From: Picocystis sp. L7
Lineage: Eukaryota; Chlorophyta; Picocystophyceae; Picocystales; Picocystaceae
Direction: 5' to 3'
NCBI GenBank assembly: GCA_020975725.1
Contig: QXJR01000008.1
Span: 558,001 to 622,000 of the forward strand
Length of the DNA stretch: 64,000 bases
Under the pieces are notes generated by a model, which was not told the DNA's origin, made no database searches, and saw only the letters and a list, made by a program, of their open reading frames with translations. Positions 28,085 to 51,892 of this stretch are shown in pieces. Each line of letters opens with the position of its first letter. Position 1 is the first letter of the stretch. The translations under genes and the position numbers were made by a program.

Positions 28085-28592
28085 CGGTTTATCTATTTGT
28101 AGCCAGGCTACAAATTAGCCAGTTTTTTCCTCTGCGGGATCAACCACCGTCCGTTCCATTCGAACCAAACAGCGAGGAGTAAATATACACTTTTGAACAA
28201 AAACATGCAGAGGAACAAGGATTCCTCCTCGTGTCTTCGAAATATTCGCTTGAACGATTCACCGATTCATCGATCGCCTGTCTCGAAAGCGACAACTGCC
28301 GCAGAGCGATTCCCGCTCCATTGTGAGGCGAAGGGGGGGCACCCTTGGGTCTCACCGGAGGACAAGGAAACGACCAAGCCAAAACAACCAAAGGACTCAT
28401 ACATTGATCGACTTGCTGAGCCATTTCCGACGACTTTCCCGCCACAGACCACCGCGAAAGAACGCGAACACAGCCGGAAAAAAGAAGACGCACGTCGATC
28501 AACACGTCTCGGCAGCCTGTTCACACCCGCCAGCAGCAACCGAAAAGACAGCAGGCGCCGACCGTGGGTGTTGTTGCGGGCTGCATTTGCGA
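28085..28592 (+). repeat. Left terminal inverted repeat of MULE, unique part
   Basis: Begins CGGTTTATCTATTTGTAGCC. Complementary to 32701-33208. Twelve bases in, it contains the perfect palindrome TTTGTAGCCAGGCTACAAA (28096-28114), mirrored at 33179-33197. Confidence 0.95.
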
Positions 28593-28934
28593 CATCCAGG
28601 ACAGCAGGTGACGGCATCGGACAGCCAGGTGGGCTGCTTTGGAGGCATCCAGGACAGCAGGTGACGGCATCGGACAGCCAGGTGGGCTGCTTTGGAGGCA
28701 TCCAGGACAGCAGGTGACGGCATCGGACAGCCAGGTGGGCTGCTTTGGAGGCATCCAGGACAGCAGGTGACGGTATCGGACAGCCAGGTGGGCTGCTTTG
28801 GAGGCATCCAGGACAGCAGGTGACGGTATCGGACAGCCAGGTGGGCTGCTTTGGAGGCATCCAGGACAGCAGGTGACGGCATCGGACAGCCAGGTGGGCT
28901 GCTTTGGAGGCTTCCAGGACAGCAGGTGACGGTA
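28593..28934 (+). repeat. Left 53-bp tandem array (about 6.5 units)
   Basis: Units of 53 bp containing GACAGCAGGTGACGGCATCG and CAGCCAGGTGGGCTGCTTTG. Two positions vary between units (GCATC/GTATC and GGCATCC/GGCTTCC). Reverse complement of the units in the right array. Confidence 0.95.
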
Positions 28935-28967
28935 ATTGAGGCAGATCTCTTGGGTCCCATTCAGCAC

Positions 28968-31319
28968 ATGGAGCAAAGTTTACTCCATATTGGGCCTGTT
29001 GGCTTCCCACAGGGCCCTTGGTCTACGGCTGAGGGGGCTTTGTGTGAAGTGAACACATTTTTAAGTTTGTGTGAAGATGGTAAATCGTGGGTTCGGTTTG
29101 GTGGGTCGATACCGGCTACAAAAAAATCTGGACAAAGGAAGAAAATCTTGTGTCGCAGAAGTGGCAACCGCCCCTCTCAAGCCCATATACGGCGAACAAC
29201 AACTCAATGTAATGGTTGTCCCTATGGGTTCATCGTTGAGGAACGTGATGGCAAATGGTACTTGAAACGTTTTATTTCCCTAGTTCACAACCATGAATTG
29301 TTCAAGGAGGATCATGCGGGTGAATTGCGGGTAATACCCGCGGAACGGACCATTCCCAATGAAGTATTGGATTATGGGCAATCCTTGTTACGATCGGGTA
29401 TGCGGATGCGAGATATACATGTGAGCTTACAACAAATGATGAAAGACAAAGGAGAAACACCAATGTGGACATACAAGGATGTTTGTAACAAGTTGGCACC
29501 TTCTTTGGGGGAAAAAGCAAGAGATTGTAGTGACTTTCTAAATCTACTTCGCAACCGTCATGATAGCAAGTCGTGGAACATTCATTGCGATAATGAAGGA
29601 AGATTGTCGAGGGCATTCTTCACCCTCGAGGAAGGTAAAGAGGCGTGGATCAAAGCTTCGAGTTCGCGGGTTCTTCTTTATGATACTAGTCATGCCACGA
29701 ATAGACATGGGATGAAGCTTGGGTGTTTTTGTACAACTAATGCCAATGGGATGACGGTCATTGTTGCTTGCTCTTTGCTCGTGCAAGAGACCGTTGAAGA
29801 TTTTGAGTGGGTTTTCAAATCCCTCGAGGATGCTTCAAATAGTCATGCACCCCGTGTGGTATTGACAGATGGTGACCAAGCGATGGCATATGCATTGAAG
29901 AGTACATGGCCGGAAGTAACTCATTTGCTATGCCTATGGCACTTTGCACAAAACGTGGTGAAGAACTTGAAGCCGATTCTTGGGAATTCATGGTCCACAT
30001 TTCGCAAGTTGTTCTGGGAGATAGCAATGGACTCGGATGCCCGGTCAATCGAATCATTTGAGAGAGATTTTGAACAGCTCAAGGAGCTTGTTTCGAAGGT
30101 TGTAGCAGAGAGGGCCAACAAGGGTGGAAAAAGTGCCAAAGGTACATCTTTCGAAGATCACAATGATTGGAAAACGTCCCAAGTAGAGGCCCCACTCGAT
30201 GAAGGGACATACCAAGCAAACGACAAATCAATGGGCTCTTCAAGTATGCCTTCTAAAAAGTGGACGACGACACAAAAAGCAACAAGGTACTTAGATATGA
30301 TGTATGCAAAAAGGAGACAATGGGCTAGTAGATGGACTTGGCAACATTTCACTCAAGGGGCTCATTCCACTCAACGGTCAGAATCTATACACGCTGCCAT
30401 CAAGGGGTTTCTTTCCTCTCGGAGTTCGTTAACTCACTTGTTGAACAAGTTGTCAGAATACGCCAATGAGAAAATGAGTGAAAATTATATGCGTGTTCTA
30501 CATGGGAGACTATTTCAAGCTAGCCAGATTTTGCATTCACCTCTTCTTGATAGTGCGGCTGATTTCATCACTCCATTTGCATGGCGTCATCTGAGCGGGC
30601 AACTAAACCAAGCACAATATTACCTTGTGAGTAAAGAAGGTGGGATGGCAAGTGAACAATATCATGTTCAAAGAATTCGTACAAATTCAACTCACAATGA
30701 GCCAAATAGTGTCCGTATGGAGGGTGCTAATGAAGCTACTGAGCAAACCATTGAAACTACCAATTCTTTGGATGCGGAGCTAGGAATATCATCAAGATTG
30801 GACAGCCGCTCAACTTCCCTTGGGAGATGTTCATGCCAATATAGCTTAAACATGGGCTTGCCTTGTAGGCATATGTTGGCTCTCTATATTCACAAGCAAA
30901 TCTTCTCATTCAAAGGTGATGAATTCAATGAAAATTGGAAGCTTGAATGCAACCAACGAACATTGAATGCATATAAAGACTTTTACTCAACAAGCAATGC
31001 TCCAAATGTTGAGTTATTGGCCATTAGAGAGAAAGAATTGCAAACAAAAGAACAAGTTTATGTAGCAATCCAACAAAAGGCCAAATATGTATGTGAGCTG
31101 GCATCATGTGTGAATGATGCAAGCACTACCGATATCGTACTAAGGGAACTTGACAAACTTGCCGCCACCATAGTAGAAAAACACTCATCGCTTGGGTCAC
31201 CCCCTAACGTTCCAATCCATGCGCAAGGAGCATGCCAAATGTTAAACCCTCCATCGGTACGTGGCAAGGGGAGACCACAGCAAAAAAGGCGGAGGCCATG
31301 TACGGAGATTCACAAGTAG
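28968..31319 (+). CDS. MULE transposase with FAR1-type zinc finger and SWIM finger
   Basis: A 783-aa transposase from the first ATG after the left array (MEQSLLHIGPVGFPQGPW). Residues ~25-105 form a FAR1/WRKY-GCM1-type DNA-binding finger (KILCRRSGNRP, TTTQCNGCPYGFIVEERDG, LVHNHEL: Cys, C-x2-C, H-N-H). The MULE catalytic core holds the first Asp in LLYDTSHATNRHG (~239), the second in VLTDGDQAMAYAL (~301), and the C/H motif LLCLWHFAQNVVKN (~322-325), with the acidic third residue in the following helical region. A SWIM finger CSCQYSLNMGLPCRHMLALY follows at ~621. This order equals Jittery/FAR1-type MULEs. The reading frame is intact. Codons are A/T-rich relative to host genes. Confidence 0.95.
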   Translation: MEQSLLHIGPVGFPQGPWSTAEGALCEVNTFLSLCEDGKSWVRFGGSIPATKKSGQRKKILCRRSGNRPSQAHIRRTTTQCNGCPYGFIVEERDGKWYLKRFISLVHNHELFKEDHAGELRVIPAERTIPNEVLDYGQSLLRSGMRMRDIHVSLQQMMKDKGETPMWTYKDVCNKLAPSLGEKARDCSDFLNLLRNRHDSKSWNIHCDNEGRLSRAFFTLEEGKEAWIKASSSRVLLYDTSHATNRHGMKLGCFCTTNANGMTVIVACSLLVQETVEDFEWVFKSLEDASNSHAPRVVLTDGDQAMAYALKSTWPEVTHLLCLWHFAQNVVKNLKPILGNSWSTFRKLFWEIAMDSDARSIESFERDFEQLKELVSKVVAERANKGGKSAKGTSFEDHNDWKTSQVEAPLDEGTYQANDKSMGSSSMPSKKWTTTQKATRYLDMMYAKRRQWASRWTWQHFTQGAHSTQRSESIHAAIKGFLSSRSSLTHLLNKLSEYANEKMSENYMRVLHGRLFQASQILHSPLLDSAADFITPFAWRHLSGQLNQAQYYLVSKEGGMASEQYHVQRIRTNSTHNEPNSVRMEGANEATEQTIETTNSLDAELGISSRLDSRSTSLGRCSCQYSLNMGLPCRHMLALYIHKQIFSFKGDEFNENWKLECNQRTLNAYKDFYSTSNAPNVELLAIREKELQTKEQVYVAIQQKAKYVCELASCVNDASTTDIVLRELDKLAATIVEKHSSLGSPPNVPIHAQGACQMLNPPSVRGKGRPQQKRRRPCTEIHK

Positions 31320-31436
31320 TTCAAGGATATCAGATGCAGCTGTTGAAAAGATGAAGTCATTTACCACATTTACAGCACACTCCAGCTCAACCTCCTTAAC
31401 TCTTTTCCAACCAACTTTCAAAGGTGGCTCTTAACT

Positions 31437-32700
31437 GCAGCCCACCTGGCTGTCCGATGCCGTCACCTGCTGTCCTGGATGCCTCCAAAGCAGCCCACCT
31501 GGCTGTCCGATGCCGTCACCTGCTGTCCTGGATGCCTCCAAAGCAGCCCACCTGGCTGTCCGATGCCGTCACCTGCTGTCCTGGAAGCCTCCAAAGCAGC
31601 CCACCTGGCTGTCCAATACCGTCACCTGCTGTCCTGGATGCCTCCAAAGCAGCCCACCTGGCTGTCCGATGCCGTCACCTGCTGTCCTGGATGCCTCCAA
31701 AGCAGCCCACCTGGCTGTCCGATACCGTCACCTGCTGTCCTGGATGCCTCCAAAGCAGCCCACCTGGCTGTCCGATACCGTCACCTGCTGTCCTGGATGC
31801 CTCCAAAGCAGCCCACCTGGCTGTCCGATGCCGTCACCTGCTGTCCTGGAAGCCTCCAAAGCAGCCCACCTGGCTGTCCGATGCCGTCACCTGCTGTCCT
31901 GGAAGCCTCCAAAGCAGCCCACCTGGCTGTCCGATGCCGTCACCTGCTGTCCTGGAAGCCTCCAAAGCAGCCCACCTGGCTGTCCGATGCCGTCACCTGC
32001 TGTCCTGGATGCCTCCAAAGCAGCCCACCTGGCTGTCCGATACCGTCACCTGCTGTCCTGGATGCCTCCAAAGCAGCCCACCTGGCTGTCCGATACCGTC
32101 ACCTGCTGTCCTGGATGCCTCCAAAGCAGCCCACCTGGCTGTCCGATGCCGTCACCTGCTGTCCTGGATGCCTCCAAAGCAGCCCACCTGGCTGTCCGAT
32201 ACCGTCACCTGCTGTCCTGGAAGCCTCCAAAGCAGCCCACCTGGCTGTCCGATGCCGTCACCTGCTGTCCTGGAAGCCTCCAAAGCAGCCCACCTGGCTG
32301 TCCGATGCCGTCACCTGCTGTCCTGGATGCCTCCAAAGCAGCCCACCTGGCTGTCCGATGCCGTCACCTGCTGTCCTGGATGCCTCCAAAGCAGCCCACC
32401 TGGCTGTCCGATGCCGTCACCTGCTGTCCTGGATGCCTCCAAAGCAGCCCACCTGGCTGTCCGATACCGTCACCTGCTGTCCTGGATGCCTCCAAAGCAG
32501 CCCACCTGGCTGTCCGATACCGTCACCTGCTGTCCTGGATGCCTCCAAAGCAGCCCACCTGGCTGTCCGATGCCGTCACCTGCTGTCCTGGAAGCCTCCA
32601 AAGCAGCCCACCTGGCTGTCCGATGCCGTCACCTGCTGTCCTGGATGCCTCCAAAGCAGCCCACCTGGCTGTCCGATGCCGTCACCTGCTGTCCTGGATG
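31437..32700 (-). repeat. Right 53-bp tandem array (about 24 units)
   Basis: About 1,264 bp of 53-bp units (CCACCTGGCTGTCCGATGCC ... CTCCAAAGCAGC). Because 53 is not a multiple of 3 and the unit has no stop in any plus-strand frame, three overlapping long open frames of 420-515 codons cross it; these are artefacts, not genes. Units differ at two sites (GATGCC/GATACC and GGATGCC/GGAAGCC), and one unit has CCAATACC. Confidence 0.95.
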
Positions 32701-33208
32701 TCGCAAATGCAGCCCGCAACAACACCCACGGTCGGCGCCTGCTGTCTTTTCGGTTGCTGCTGGCGGGTGTGAACAGGCTGCCGAGACGTGTTGATCGACG
32801 TGCGTCTTCTTTTTTCCGGCTGTGTTCGCGTTCTTTCGCGGTGGTCTGTGGCGGGAAAGTCGTCGGAAATGGCTCAGCAAGTCGATCAATGTATGAGTCC
32901 TTTGGTTGTTTTGGCTTGGTCGTTTCCTTGTCCTCCGGTGAGACCCAAGGGTGCCCCCCCTTCGCCTCACAATGGAGCGGGAATCGCTCTGCGGCAGTTG
33001 TCGCTTTCGAGACAGGCGATCGATGAATCGGTGAATCGTTCAAGCGAATATTTCGAAGACACGAGGAGGAATCCTTGTTCCTCTGCATGTTTTTGTTCAA
33101 AAGTGTATATTTACTCCTCGCTGTTTGGTTCGAATGGAACGGACGGTGGTTGATCCCGCAGAGGAAAAAACTGGCTAATTTGTAGCCTGGCTACAAATAG
33201 ATAAACCG
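32701..33208 (-). repeat. Right terminal inverted repeat of MULE, unique part
   Basis: 508 bp, inverse of 28085-28592, ending ...ATAGATAAACCG. Followed by the duplicated GACTCGAGA at 33209-33217. Confidence 0.95.
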
Positions 33209-47718: not shown

Positions 47719-47805
47719 GCCGGACTGAACTTGAGTGGTCTTGGGTGCGGGCTTCAAACCCGTAGACGCCTGACGGCGTAGAGGTTCGATTCCTCCTGGC
47801 CGGCG
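47719..47805 (+). tRNA. tRNA-Sec (anticodon TCA)
   Basis: An 87-nt tRNA including the discriminator G at 47805. The acceptor pairs GCCGGACTG (47719-47727) with CTGGCCGGC (47796-47804), nine positions with two internal mismatches. The D arm is CTTGAG/CTTGGG, six pairs with a TGGT loop. The anticodon arm is GCGGG-CTTCAAA-CCCGT with anticodon TCA at 47754-47756. The variable arm is long, ACGCC-TGAC-GGCGT (47766-47779). The T arm is GAGG-TTCGATT-CCTC. The 9+4 acceptor/T architecture, six-pair D stem and long variable arm are the hallmarks of eukaryotic selenocysteine tRNA. No run of four T is present in the 200 bp downstream, which is odd for a polymerase III transcript. Confidence 0.95.
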
Positions 47806-48725: not shown

Positions 48726-49129
48726 CTCGATTCGCGTGGCAGCGCAAAGAGACGCTGCAGGAGACGCGGATGTGCAACGGCGACGATGGATGGTTGGACC
48801 GACAGCCGGTCGATCTCGGTCTGTCCCCGAACAGACCCGACGCAGATTTCTTTTTAGAAGGAAAATGGATCCGGTTACGAAAGGAGATCCGATCCCCTTC
48901 TTTTGAGTCGATGGGTTGAACCCGCCGCATGGGTCGGACTTTCCCGGTCAAAGGTCGGCAACAGTCCCGAAGGAGGTTCCTACTCTTCTGGGTTCGGAGG
49001 GGGGGCACCCAAGGCCCAGGTTTGGCGGGAAAGACCCCCCACGGCAGGGGCGCGATTGCCTCTGCGCATTCTGCCACAACTGCCCGAATAGAAGAGATCT
49101 TGTGCCGATCACACCGGCGATCGATCCGA
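48726..49129. other. Divergent intergenic region CHZ / CDT1-CDT2
   Basis: About 400 bp between two chromatin/replication genes, suggesting a shared promoter. It contains a G run near 48999-49005. No other gene seen. Confidence 0.5.
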
Positions 49130-51892
49130 ATGGCGAAGAGGAGAGGAGAATTCTGGCGCGAGATCCTGAACCAGGCGACCAGAATTTGGCGCGAGTTTCG
49201 AGGTCCCAGCACACCAGTTGAAGCTCCAGCCGCTCCTTCAGCAATGGTTCGTGCATCCAGGAGGAGACAGCTTGCGTGTGCAAGGCCTGCAGCATCACTG
49301 GTCGGAGCCGGCGCTTCAAATGCGGCTTGGTGGACCACACAGTCCGGGAAACGCGTGCTGGCCGAGGGCAACAAGGACAGTCTCGTTCCCGAAGCAAACA
49401 AGCGGCAGAAGAAGGTAAGAGAAGGAGAGATATCGCAGCTCCGAAGCATCGAAGGATAAAGGGGTCAGTTCGACCGGATTGCGTGATGAGCAGCAGGAAA
49501 GAGCGATGTAGCTGACCATCGGCACTTGCTGGTTGGGAACGACGAACAGCATGCGGAAGAGGACTTCGAAACCCAATGGGAAGTAGCAAAGCAAAGGATA
49601 CTACCGGAAAGCCTATTACGGCTCGAAGGAATCTTTCTGGCAGTGGAGACTGTCCTTGGATGTGGAAGGTCCTTACGCCGGAAAGTACCCCTGGACAAGT
49701 TGAAGACCGCGGTGGAACTTCATCTCACAAATATGGGCATTGCAGAGCCTTTTCATGTTGGACACCTAGAGCAGGTGGCATCCCTTCTCCCCGGGGCATA
49801 CAAACTTGACAAATTGAAAAGTGGAGGAGGGAGGAGTTGGCGTGTGCAAATGGGCGAAGTAGACCAAAGCACGATCAATGGTGCAGCATCGACCAAGGCA
49901 CGGTGCTCCCGCGAATCTACCTTGCTTGTGCGGCGGCGTCTCTTTCGAAGAGCAACGATAGAATTCGTAAGGGAGAGATTTCAAGGATATGCACTGGCAT
50001 TCCTTCATGGAGCAGAGCTGGAATGCTGGCTGAAGGAATCTGCCAAAATGGTCCCAAGGCACTGGCATCCCGGTTTCGACCTCTCGCGGGTCGCTGATGT
50101 ACCACGTGTTCCAGTCGTGGAAACAACTGGCCCGACAAATGATATAGTATCGATGAACAGCCTGCTTCAGCTGGGATTCAAGCAACGAAAGGTAGCTCCG
50201 GCACAGCAAGGGGAAACGCTAGAAATTCCTCCCCACGTGCAGGTTTCGGAGAAGATCTTGCCAACGGCTACTTCATCGCTCACAGGTGAAAAGGTTGTGG
50301 TTGCTGAGGGAACAGAGAACAAGGATCTCGCCTTGGTCTCCCAGCTAGCTGTAAACAGAGAGATGTTGGATTCTCGACAGCCCAAAGCATCTGAAAAGAA
50401 AGCCAGCAAAAGTATCTATGTAGGGACATTGTGTGATGCCATACGGATGAGAGAGTGTGGATTGCGGAGCCGAGGTGTATCTGACGCACACCCTACTGGC
50501 CAATGTCTTTCTCTGAAGATTCACCCCTCCCGCACAGAGTATAGAACACACGCACTGCAAGCAGCAAATCAAATGGTGTACTTCCCGGACGAAGGAACCA
50601 ATGGGGACTCCTTCGGTCCAGCCCTGTGCTGCAGGTTTGACCGCACTGGACAATATGTCGCGACAGGCTACGAGAATGGGGCAGTGTCCATAATCGATTC
50701 CTCTCAATTCTCAGCAGGGCCTCGGCTTCAAGAGGACAACAGCATACTGTCTGTTGGCTCTGATGGTTGCAGGACGGGGCTACCCCTAGCAAGTTTCGCG
50801 GCACATTCAGATGCAATTTTTGACTTGACATGGTTTCACGGAGGTAGGAGTATTTTGACAGCCTCGGGCGACAACACAGTCCAGGTTAATGACGTGGAGA
50901 CACTTGCCCCAGTAGCAGTATTTCAAGGTCACACCCAGAGTGTGAAAAGGATTGCACCTTTGGCCATTCAAGACGAGAGTAAAAACAGGCCCTCCTCGGC
51001 AGTATTTGCAACTGCTTCGAGAGATGGGAGTGTCAGGGTTTGGGATGAGAGAACCCCAGGTAGCAGAACAACTCTTTGTGGAGCACTGGTGCACCAGGCA
51101 GAAATCACTATCGCAAACGCTCACACAAGTCCTGGGAGAATGAATCCTGACGTCCAAGGCCTGAAGAACTGCTCGGTGACTGATCTGGTATCCTGGAGCG
51201 ACGGTCAAGTGATCATATCTTCCGGCGATCAGGATGGTTGTGTGAAGCTCTGGGACTTGCGCATGCTCAGAGAGAGCCCAGAATGCCGCAAGTCAACGAT
51301 GAAAAAGTTGCAGCCATTCATTTCGTTCAATCCATCACAGGCAGCAACACACGGCGGCCGTAGCTACGGAATATCAAGCCTTGCATACGATCAAAACTCA
51401 AGCAGCATCCTTGCGAACTGCAGGAATGGGAGGATATACCTTTATGAGCTTGATGATCTCTTATCCACAGCCCCGAATTACACCGGGGGTTGCATCCCTT
51501 CTGCAACCTTCACGGGGCACCAAACCGATTCGTTCTATGTGCGTAGCTGTTTCAGTCCATGTGGCAACTTTATCATAAGCAGCTCCAGCGACAGGAATGT
51601 TTTTGTGTGGGACAAGCATGATCCCTATGAACTGCCTATGGTTTTGAGTGGGCACACAATGGATGCAAACGGTGTGGACTGGAACCCGATCAATTTGAAC
51701 CAGGTGGTATCTTCAGGAGACGACGGGAGTGTGCGAGTGTGGCATTTGAACATGGTTCCTACGCTGCGGAAGACACGACCCAGGCAGGACACCACGCTTA
51801 CAGTGCAAGGACCGGCACATTTCTCCAAGCGCGGCAATTGTCGAGCGGCGACCAGGAGGCGGGTTTCCATCAAGGACTTCCTGGTGTGCTAG
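49130..51892 (+). CDS. CDT1-CDT2 fusion: CDT1 geminin-binding-like domain plus CDT2/DTL WD40 receptor
   Basis: An 875-aa protein. Exon 1 is 49130-49414; the 135-nt intron has donor GTAAGA, branch CTGACC and acceptor GAACAG; exon 2 is 49550-51892. Residues ~113-285 resemble the CDT1 central (geminin-binding) domain: LPESLLRLEGIFLAVETVLG, LDKLKTAVELHL, FHVGHLEQVASLLPGAYKL, a basic helix, and the signature PRHWHPGFDLSRVADVP, matching the RWHP-FN-EVPDI of human CDT1. Residues ~450-830 are a CDT2-type WD40 propeller: HSDAIFDLTWFHG, VRVWDERT and VKLWDLRM (WDxR motifs that bind DDB1), YGISSLAYDQNSSSILANCR, GHQTDSFYVRSCFSP. The C-terminal CDT1 MCM-binding domain is missing. The last residues, RRRVSIKDFLVC, look like a degenerate PIP box. 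One uninterrupted frame covers both halves. Confidence 0.85.

Follow-up and report, generated by a model that had tools for sequence, protein, structure and literature searches.

The window, by which we mean the whole 64-kb stretch of DNA that was analysed, contains a plus-strand reading frame in which a CDT1-type domain and a CDT2-type receptor are joined. CDT1 and its destroyer CDT2 are a textbook pair that helps to limit DNA replication to once per cell cycle. CDT2 is the substrate receptor of the CUL4-DDB1 ubiquitin ligase, and in animals geminin keeps CDT1 off MCM. The frame is open for 800 codons, from 49490 to 51892, with its stop at 51890-51892, and the order within the protein is CDT1 middle domain, propeller with two WDxR motifs and PIP-like tail. 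The features of the locus are as follows:

49021..49032, plus strand: E2F-like site TTTGGCGGGAAA, from sequence
49185..49192, plus strand: E2F-like site TTTGGCGC, from sequence
49244..49414, plus strand: candidate upstream exon, coding part (MVRAS...NKRQKK, followed by a GTAAGA donor), from codon score
49415..49501, plus strand: candidate intron holding both in-frame stops, from sequence and codon scores; 3' end somewhere between 49501 and 49549
49490..51892, plus strand: open frame of the fusion, 800 codons and stop; true start upstream, in the candidate exon
49601..50113, plus strand: CDT1 middle domain (winged-helix, geminin/MCM-binding), residues 38-208, from PF08839
50153..50206, plus strand: conserved short segment MNSLLQLGFKQRKVAPAQ, residues 222-239, from the alignment of fusions
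50216..50605, plus strand: fast-diverging linker, residues 243-372, 19/130 identical to the relative P0003 (15%)
50606..51757, plus strand: CDT2/DTL-type WD40 propeller, residues 373-756, from DTL matches and alignment with the alga's own CDT2
51041..51052, plus strand: WDER, first WDxR motif (putative DDB1 contact), WDER also in the relatives P0002 and P0003
51251..51262, plus strand: WDLR, second WDxR motif, WDLR also in P0002 and P0003
51851..51889, plus strand: PIP-like tail ending RVSIKDFLVC, residues 788-800, from conservation and comparison with CDT2 tails

Two other elements were seen in the window. A MULE transposase frame (28824-31319, PF10551) lies within 28578-32715, with inverted arrays of a single 53-bp repeat on either side (28578-28932 with 6.7 copies and 31437-32715 with 24 copies), the larger of which is open in three frames; the region resembles a Mutator-like element whose ends are repeat arrays. 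A tRNA-SeC gene (47719-47805) is predicted a short way upstream of the fusion, from which the alga may be one that makes selenoproteins.

The preliminary description had placed the fusion at 49130..51892, with both halves in one exon. The frame is indeed open across both halves from 49490 to 51892, but the 5' boundary at 49130 is a candidate only. Two stop codons, at 49457-49459 and 49487-49489, interrupt the frame upstream of 49490, so that 49130-49414 belongs to the fusion gene only via an intron. This upstream stretch is in the same frame as the fusion and its codon score is the best of the three frames, as measured with a codon table built from ten pieces, mostly unreviewed open frames. 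Since the first ATG in the 49490-51892 frame comes no earlier than residue 82, an upstream exon is expected (or a non-ATG start). The residue numbering first given for the CDT1 part (113-285) implies an intron at 49415-49549. The last part of this interval, 49490-49549, has a coding score, however, and shows weak similarity to P0003, so that an acceptor near 49501-49511 appears more likely than one at 49549. The ATG at 49130 shares its frame with the candidate ATG at 49244, and as the E2F-like sites at 49021-49032 and 49185-49192 flank the former, ATG 49244 is an alternative start.

These E2F-like sites hint at G1/S expression of the fusion. The pattern TTTSSCGC occurs 13 times on both strands of the window, and two of these occurrences are upstream of the fusion, one of them inside TTTGGCGGGAAA. 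Two also lie just upstream of the alga's separate CDT2 gene; both pairs were noticed after the fact. One more lies at the PCNA locus, and one upstream of the separate CDT1 gene, ~860 bases before its likely start. The E2F 12-mer TTTSSCGSSAAA was rejected as a marker of replication genes, since it occurs 78 times in the genome and its reversed control 55 times, which is a hint at most. Among the 15 loci of this 12-mer that were looked at (L018-L032), one (L021) lies upstream of a cohesin loader and eight are one tandem array. The units of this array (L023-L030, contig 3, 260246-277484) are ~2461 bp long and each carries TTTGGCGGGAAA at the same place.

The CDT1 assignment of the N-terminal half, which had been made from the hallmark PRHWHPGFDLSRVADVP, was borne out by profile searches. 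The hallmark aligns with RWHPRFNVDEVPDI of human CDT1, and PF08839 matched residues 38-208 significantly, over profile positions 1-168 of 170 (40.5 bits, E 4.2e-10, cut-off 22.6 bits); with other choices of stretch the score rose to as much as 44.6 bits. The family also scored above cut-off in P0002 (38.3 bits) and P0003 (45.2 bits). A profile made from the own and human CDT1 picked exactly P0001-P0003 from 122 CDT2-type proteins (E 1.3e-6 to 4.6e-6, the next match being at 5.3), and hhalign of the fusion N-domains against the same two CDT1 sequences gave 94.5%. When a profile of three fusion N-domains was run against the PDB, the top match was Cdt1 (2zxx) with a weak E of 0.029, and the four distinct Cdt1 sequences took ranks 1, 3, 4 and 6 among 14 matches; the ranks between and below them include asparaginases and a 2S albumin.

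The first 377 residues of the fusion matched no family besides PF08839 at E up to 1. PF16679 is thus absent from them, in agreement with the earlier remark that the C-terminal domain of CDT1 is missing; in the genome, a search with PF16679 matched only the separate CDT1, and one of 14 control genomes, that of B. subtilis, gave a match, below the cut-off. Nor is an N-terminal PIP degron, the other element said to be lacking, seen in the readable part of the fusion. The sole upstream candidate, QPLLQQWF at 49227, was rejected as it lies in another frame; the pattern that found it also allows W, K, M or R. The segment MNSLLQLGFKQRKVAPAQ follows directly after the CDT1 domain and is strongly kept, at the edge of an otherwise variable region.

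The second half of the protein had been described as a complete CDT2/DTL propeller with two WDxR motifs, and our searches agree. In a single-sequence search of the PDB, human DTL/CDT2 (9c5t, 138 bits, E 3e-39) was the best specific match, below only the highly repetitive WD40 chain 2ymu, whose 186.8 bits are summed over repeats. A profile of four fusion sequences placed DTL first (159.8 bits, E 7.8e-46, versus 147.1 for 2ymu), and the propeller can be aligned with the own CDT2, to which it is identical at 125/392 positions (32%). The two WDxR motifs, putative DDB1 contacts, are WDER at residue 518 and WDLR at residue 588.

We then compared columns that are nearly invariant in the family, defined as those in which 95% or more of 120 other CDT2 rows, the own CDT2 included, agree. 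The four fusion rows all keep 43 of these 53 columns, replace nine in every row and are mixed at one; the own CDT2 departs at 0/53. The replacements are identical in the four rows: P52A, N99D, Q120N, W125N, G159A, V222L, K322R, G335S and E362D (human numbering). Judged by these columns, most of the propeller is conserved and its departures form a fixed signature private to the fusions, and as nine CDT2 residues are replaced, the substrate choice of the fusion may have changed or been lost. Five substrate-pocket residues of CDT2 are predicted in PMC8871960. K144, R161 and D381 are kept in the fusions, E362 is D, and K271 is not kept; the last was rejected as a lost pocket residue, as it is K in just 39/120 other rows. 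A tree was built from 30 of the 124 CDT2-type rows. The three fusion rows in it group together (100/100), and the stem of their clade measures 2.43 changes per column. The best tree puts this clade beside P0084 (support 62/67), and a placement as sister of the own CDT2 is not rejected (AU p 0.366).

The C-termini of the fusions read RVSIKDFLVC or RFSIKDYMSC. The strict PIP pattern [KMQ]xx[ILMV]xx[FY][FY] does not match them (RVSIKDFL or RFSIKDYM), as the tail is without the PIP glutamine and the last aromatic residue. Within the last 60 residues a strict PIP box is found in 33/122 CDT2-type proteins (0.38 expected from shuffles), the three fusions not among them, and the box therefore does not define the CDT2 family at large. 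The relaxed motif [ST][ILMV]x[DEN][FY][FYLM] occurs in the same stretch of 86/122 proteins, fusions included (0.27 expected from shuffles), although it was widened after the fusions had been seen and so was made to include them. The fusion tail looks like a weakened form of the CDT2 tail element, which in human CDT2 binds PCNA directly (PMC6312923).

To look for relatives, we searched a protein database of 5.8 billion. Candidates in it are limited to 0.55 to 1.75 times the length of the query, and a relative made up of the CDT1-like domain alone would have escaped for this reason. The window protein as query gave three relatives of its N-terminal half (7998 candidates scored), and P0003 as query gave the same three at E up to 10 (444 candidates). 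P0001, P0002 and P0003 are 99, 69 and 44% identical to the fusion over the N-terminal part and 779-793 residues long, and all are fusions with PF08839 and WD40, so that the uninterrupted fused frame, which the preliminary description had suggested seeking in related genomes, does recur. P0001, at 99%, may come from the same species as the window protein. Among the 122 CDT2-type proteins only these three carry a CDT1 domain. A plasmid search with P0003 gave 86 records, none covering 80% of the query, with generic WD40 proteins among the matches listed.

The window protein and P0003 are identical at 106/171 positions in the CDT1 domain and at 242/384 in the propeller (62-63% in both domains). 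Residues 757-787 have 7/31 identities and the last 13 residues 8/13. On this alignment, constraint on both domains and on the tip, with freedom in the linker, is what is expected of one working protein. The difference between domains at 62-63% and a linker at 15% means that selection holds both halves, which argues that the fusion is no artefact. At the level of sequence, we regard it as confirmed that the union of a CDT1 domain and a CDT2-type receptor in one protein is real.

Separate CDT1 and CDT2 genes were also sought in the genome (20.5 Mb, 30 contigs), and both are present (L009 and L002). The fusion is therefore an additional, strongly diverged CDT2 paralogue and is free to have a job of its own. 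The own CDT1 (L009, contig 25) matches PF08839 with 63.1 bits and PF16679 with 28.8 bits in the genome search or 24.1 on the open frame, just below the cut-off of 25; at E up to 1 it matches nothing in the PDB but four CDT1 sequences. From a likely start its N-terminus reads MERRSRRSDSTIPDYMLASK. By the PIP degron rules of PMC8871960, it has a PIP-degron-like start, STIPDYMLASK (from 1261 of L009), and CDT2-type control of CDT1 may thus persist. The own CDT2 (L002, contig 9) gives a DTL match of 223.6 bits. Its C-terminus is a canonical PIP box, QLALDHFF, followed by two more residues, and QLALDHFF recurs in the near-twins P0004 and P0005. Setting aside these near-twins and the fusion, it is 40-46% identical to its 17 best relatives (P0006-P0022), 14 of which are from Chara, land plants and green algae; they were counted at E up to 1e-30 among the best 120 of 220 matches, with 7999 candidates scored.

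Partner genes were found as well. PCNA is present, DDB1 is represented by a 273-residue piece, cullins, typed to the level of the family, are found at four places, and E2F/DP at four. The geminin search was silent in this genome and equally silent in all control genomes. Searches of the genome for the phycobilisome linker (for which the control gave a match) and for the phytochrome PHY domain found none. The LHC family is found at 18 places; the one LHC frame examined matched chlorophyll a-b binding proteins (6kac, 394 bits), with two long 9vfj chains named LHCI-2 and LHCI-11 above them in the ranking. A red alga, which a GC content of about 55% and the scarcity of introns had suggested, was rejected in view of the missing linker and the LHC family, and the lack of a PHY domain gave no support to Pycnococcus. 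We regard the organism as a green alga or, with lower probability, as an alga whose plastid is of green origin.

Given the two domains and their conservation together, and given that CDT1, CDT2 and the partners have genes of their own, we tentatively infer that the fusion is a CRL4-DDB1 receptor that would dock on MCM2-7 and PCNA and block or remove licensing factors in S phase; its binding to DDB1, MCM and PCNA, its ligase activity and its timing are conjectural, and we hold this reading to be plausible rather than probable. An extra CDT2 paralogue would have gained a CDT1 middle domain at its N-terminus. The propeller would bind DDB1 through the two WDxR motifs, the CDT1-like domain would attach to MCM2-7 in the way that the middle domain of CDT1 attaches to MCM2, and the PIP-like tail would dock on PCNA. 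The ligase, tethered in this way to licensed or replicating MCM, would compete with true CDT1 and, from the beginning of S phase, could mark CDT1, MCM or some other protein bound at origins for removal. Human CDT1 contacts MCM2 with its middle domain and MCM4 and MCM6 with its C-terminal domain, and the middle domain alone has no significant loading activity (PMC12695944). The fusion, being without the C-terminal domain, should not license by itself, and a middle domain of this kind on a CRL4 receptor with a PCNA-type tail is best read as an MCM-tethered ligase that competes with CDT1.

CDT1 inhibits CMG through its MCM-binding regions, and the MCM interface of the middle domain lies near R210, with R198 and R210 as the mutated residues (PMC7614657). 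The column of R210 holds L, L and T in the fusion, P0002 and P0003 and R in the own CDT1, in an alignment that is uncertain at ~20% identity; beside it the fusions have a conserved basic cluster, RxxRRK. R198 is absent from the own CDT1 and from the fusions. The L, L and T at the R210 column would speak against the mechanism proposed here, as would a tail that resembles a weakened PIP box. We think it unlikely that the fusion goes further and acts as a CDT1 mimic with its own ligase, which would sit on the CDT1 site of MCM2-7 in S phase, block it in a geminin-like manner and mark CDT1 or stray MCM for destruction. If that were true, inhibition and degradation of licensing would be built into one protein in this algal lineage.

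The receptor may also have been re-aimed, with the CDT1-like winged helix serving as a substrate- or DNA-binding adaptor without MCM contact and the ligase serving another substrate, a possibility we consider somewhat unlikely. The CDT1-like domain is far from the own CDT1 (BLASTP gave no match between them, and PF08839 scores 44.6 versus 63.1 bits), the stem of the fusion clade is long, the R210 column is not kept and nine signature residues of CDT2 are replaced, all of which would suit such a change. However, PF08839 is nearly full-length in the window protein, P0002 and P0003, and the PIP-like tail and E2F-like sites persist. We judge it improbable that the fusion is a decoy or dominant-negative protein that binds MCM2-7 or PCNA and so blocks licensing or the substrates of CDT2 without ligase action. 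The missing C-terminal domain, the lack of significant loading by the human middle domain alone (PMC12695944) and the replaced signature residues, E362 to D included, are consistent with a decoy, but a pure decoy would not need the WDxR motifs or the 43/53 near-invariant propeller columns that are kept. It is very unlikely that the protein is a self-limiting switch that ubiquitylates itself in cis via the fused CDT1 domain once PCNA is loaded: chromatin poly-ubiquitylation of CDT2 does depend on its PIP box (PMC6312923), but the readable part of the fusion has no PIP degron and the PIP-like string at 49227 is in another frame. An artefact of two adjacent genes, mis-assembly or a pseudogene is scarcely credible, for although the start exon is only a candidate and the gene model comes from sequence alone, the frame runs unbroken across the junction both in this protein and in its three relatives, of which the most distant has 44% identity, and conservation is domain-specific.

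A conserved protein that joins CDT1 and CDT2 beside normal copies of both would be a wiring of licensing control that we did not find described in the literature searched; no paper on a CDT1-CDT2 fusion was found in the open-licence literature. Under our favoured reading, that of an MCM-tethered ligase, the fusion is an example from nature in which a ligase receptor has been linked to a licensing domain, and replication origins may be policed by this built-in means. It also suggests, in a form that experiments can address, how CDT1 might be kept under control in an alga that has no geminin, although the geminin search, silent in this genome and in all controls alike, does not show that geminin is absent here.

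Among known systems, we file the fusion as a variant of the CDT2 receptor, in view of its predicted propeller and WDxR motifs, although the strict PIP pattern failed, as it does in most CDT2 rows. Like CDT2/DTL (DCAF2, a CRL4 receptor), it has the propeller, two WDxR motifs and a C-terminal PIP-like tail; unlike CDT2/DTL, it has an extra N-terminal CDT1 domain and a long linker, and nine near-invariant residues are replaced. A normal CDT2 is, moreover, present beside it. The fusion shares with CDT1 the middle domain, over nearly all of PF08839, but it is not a CDT1 as it is without the C-terminal MCM-binding domain; in addition, no N-terminal PIP degron is seen (the N-terminus being a candidate exon) and a normal CDT1 is also in the genome. 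With geminin the likeness is one of function only and no sequence relation is claimed: the fusion would, like geminin, hinder the contact between CDT1 and MCM2.
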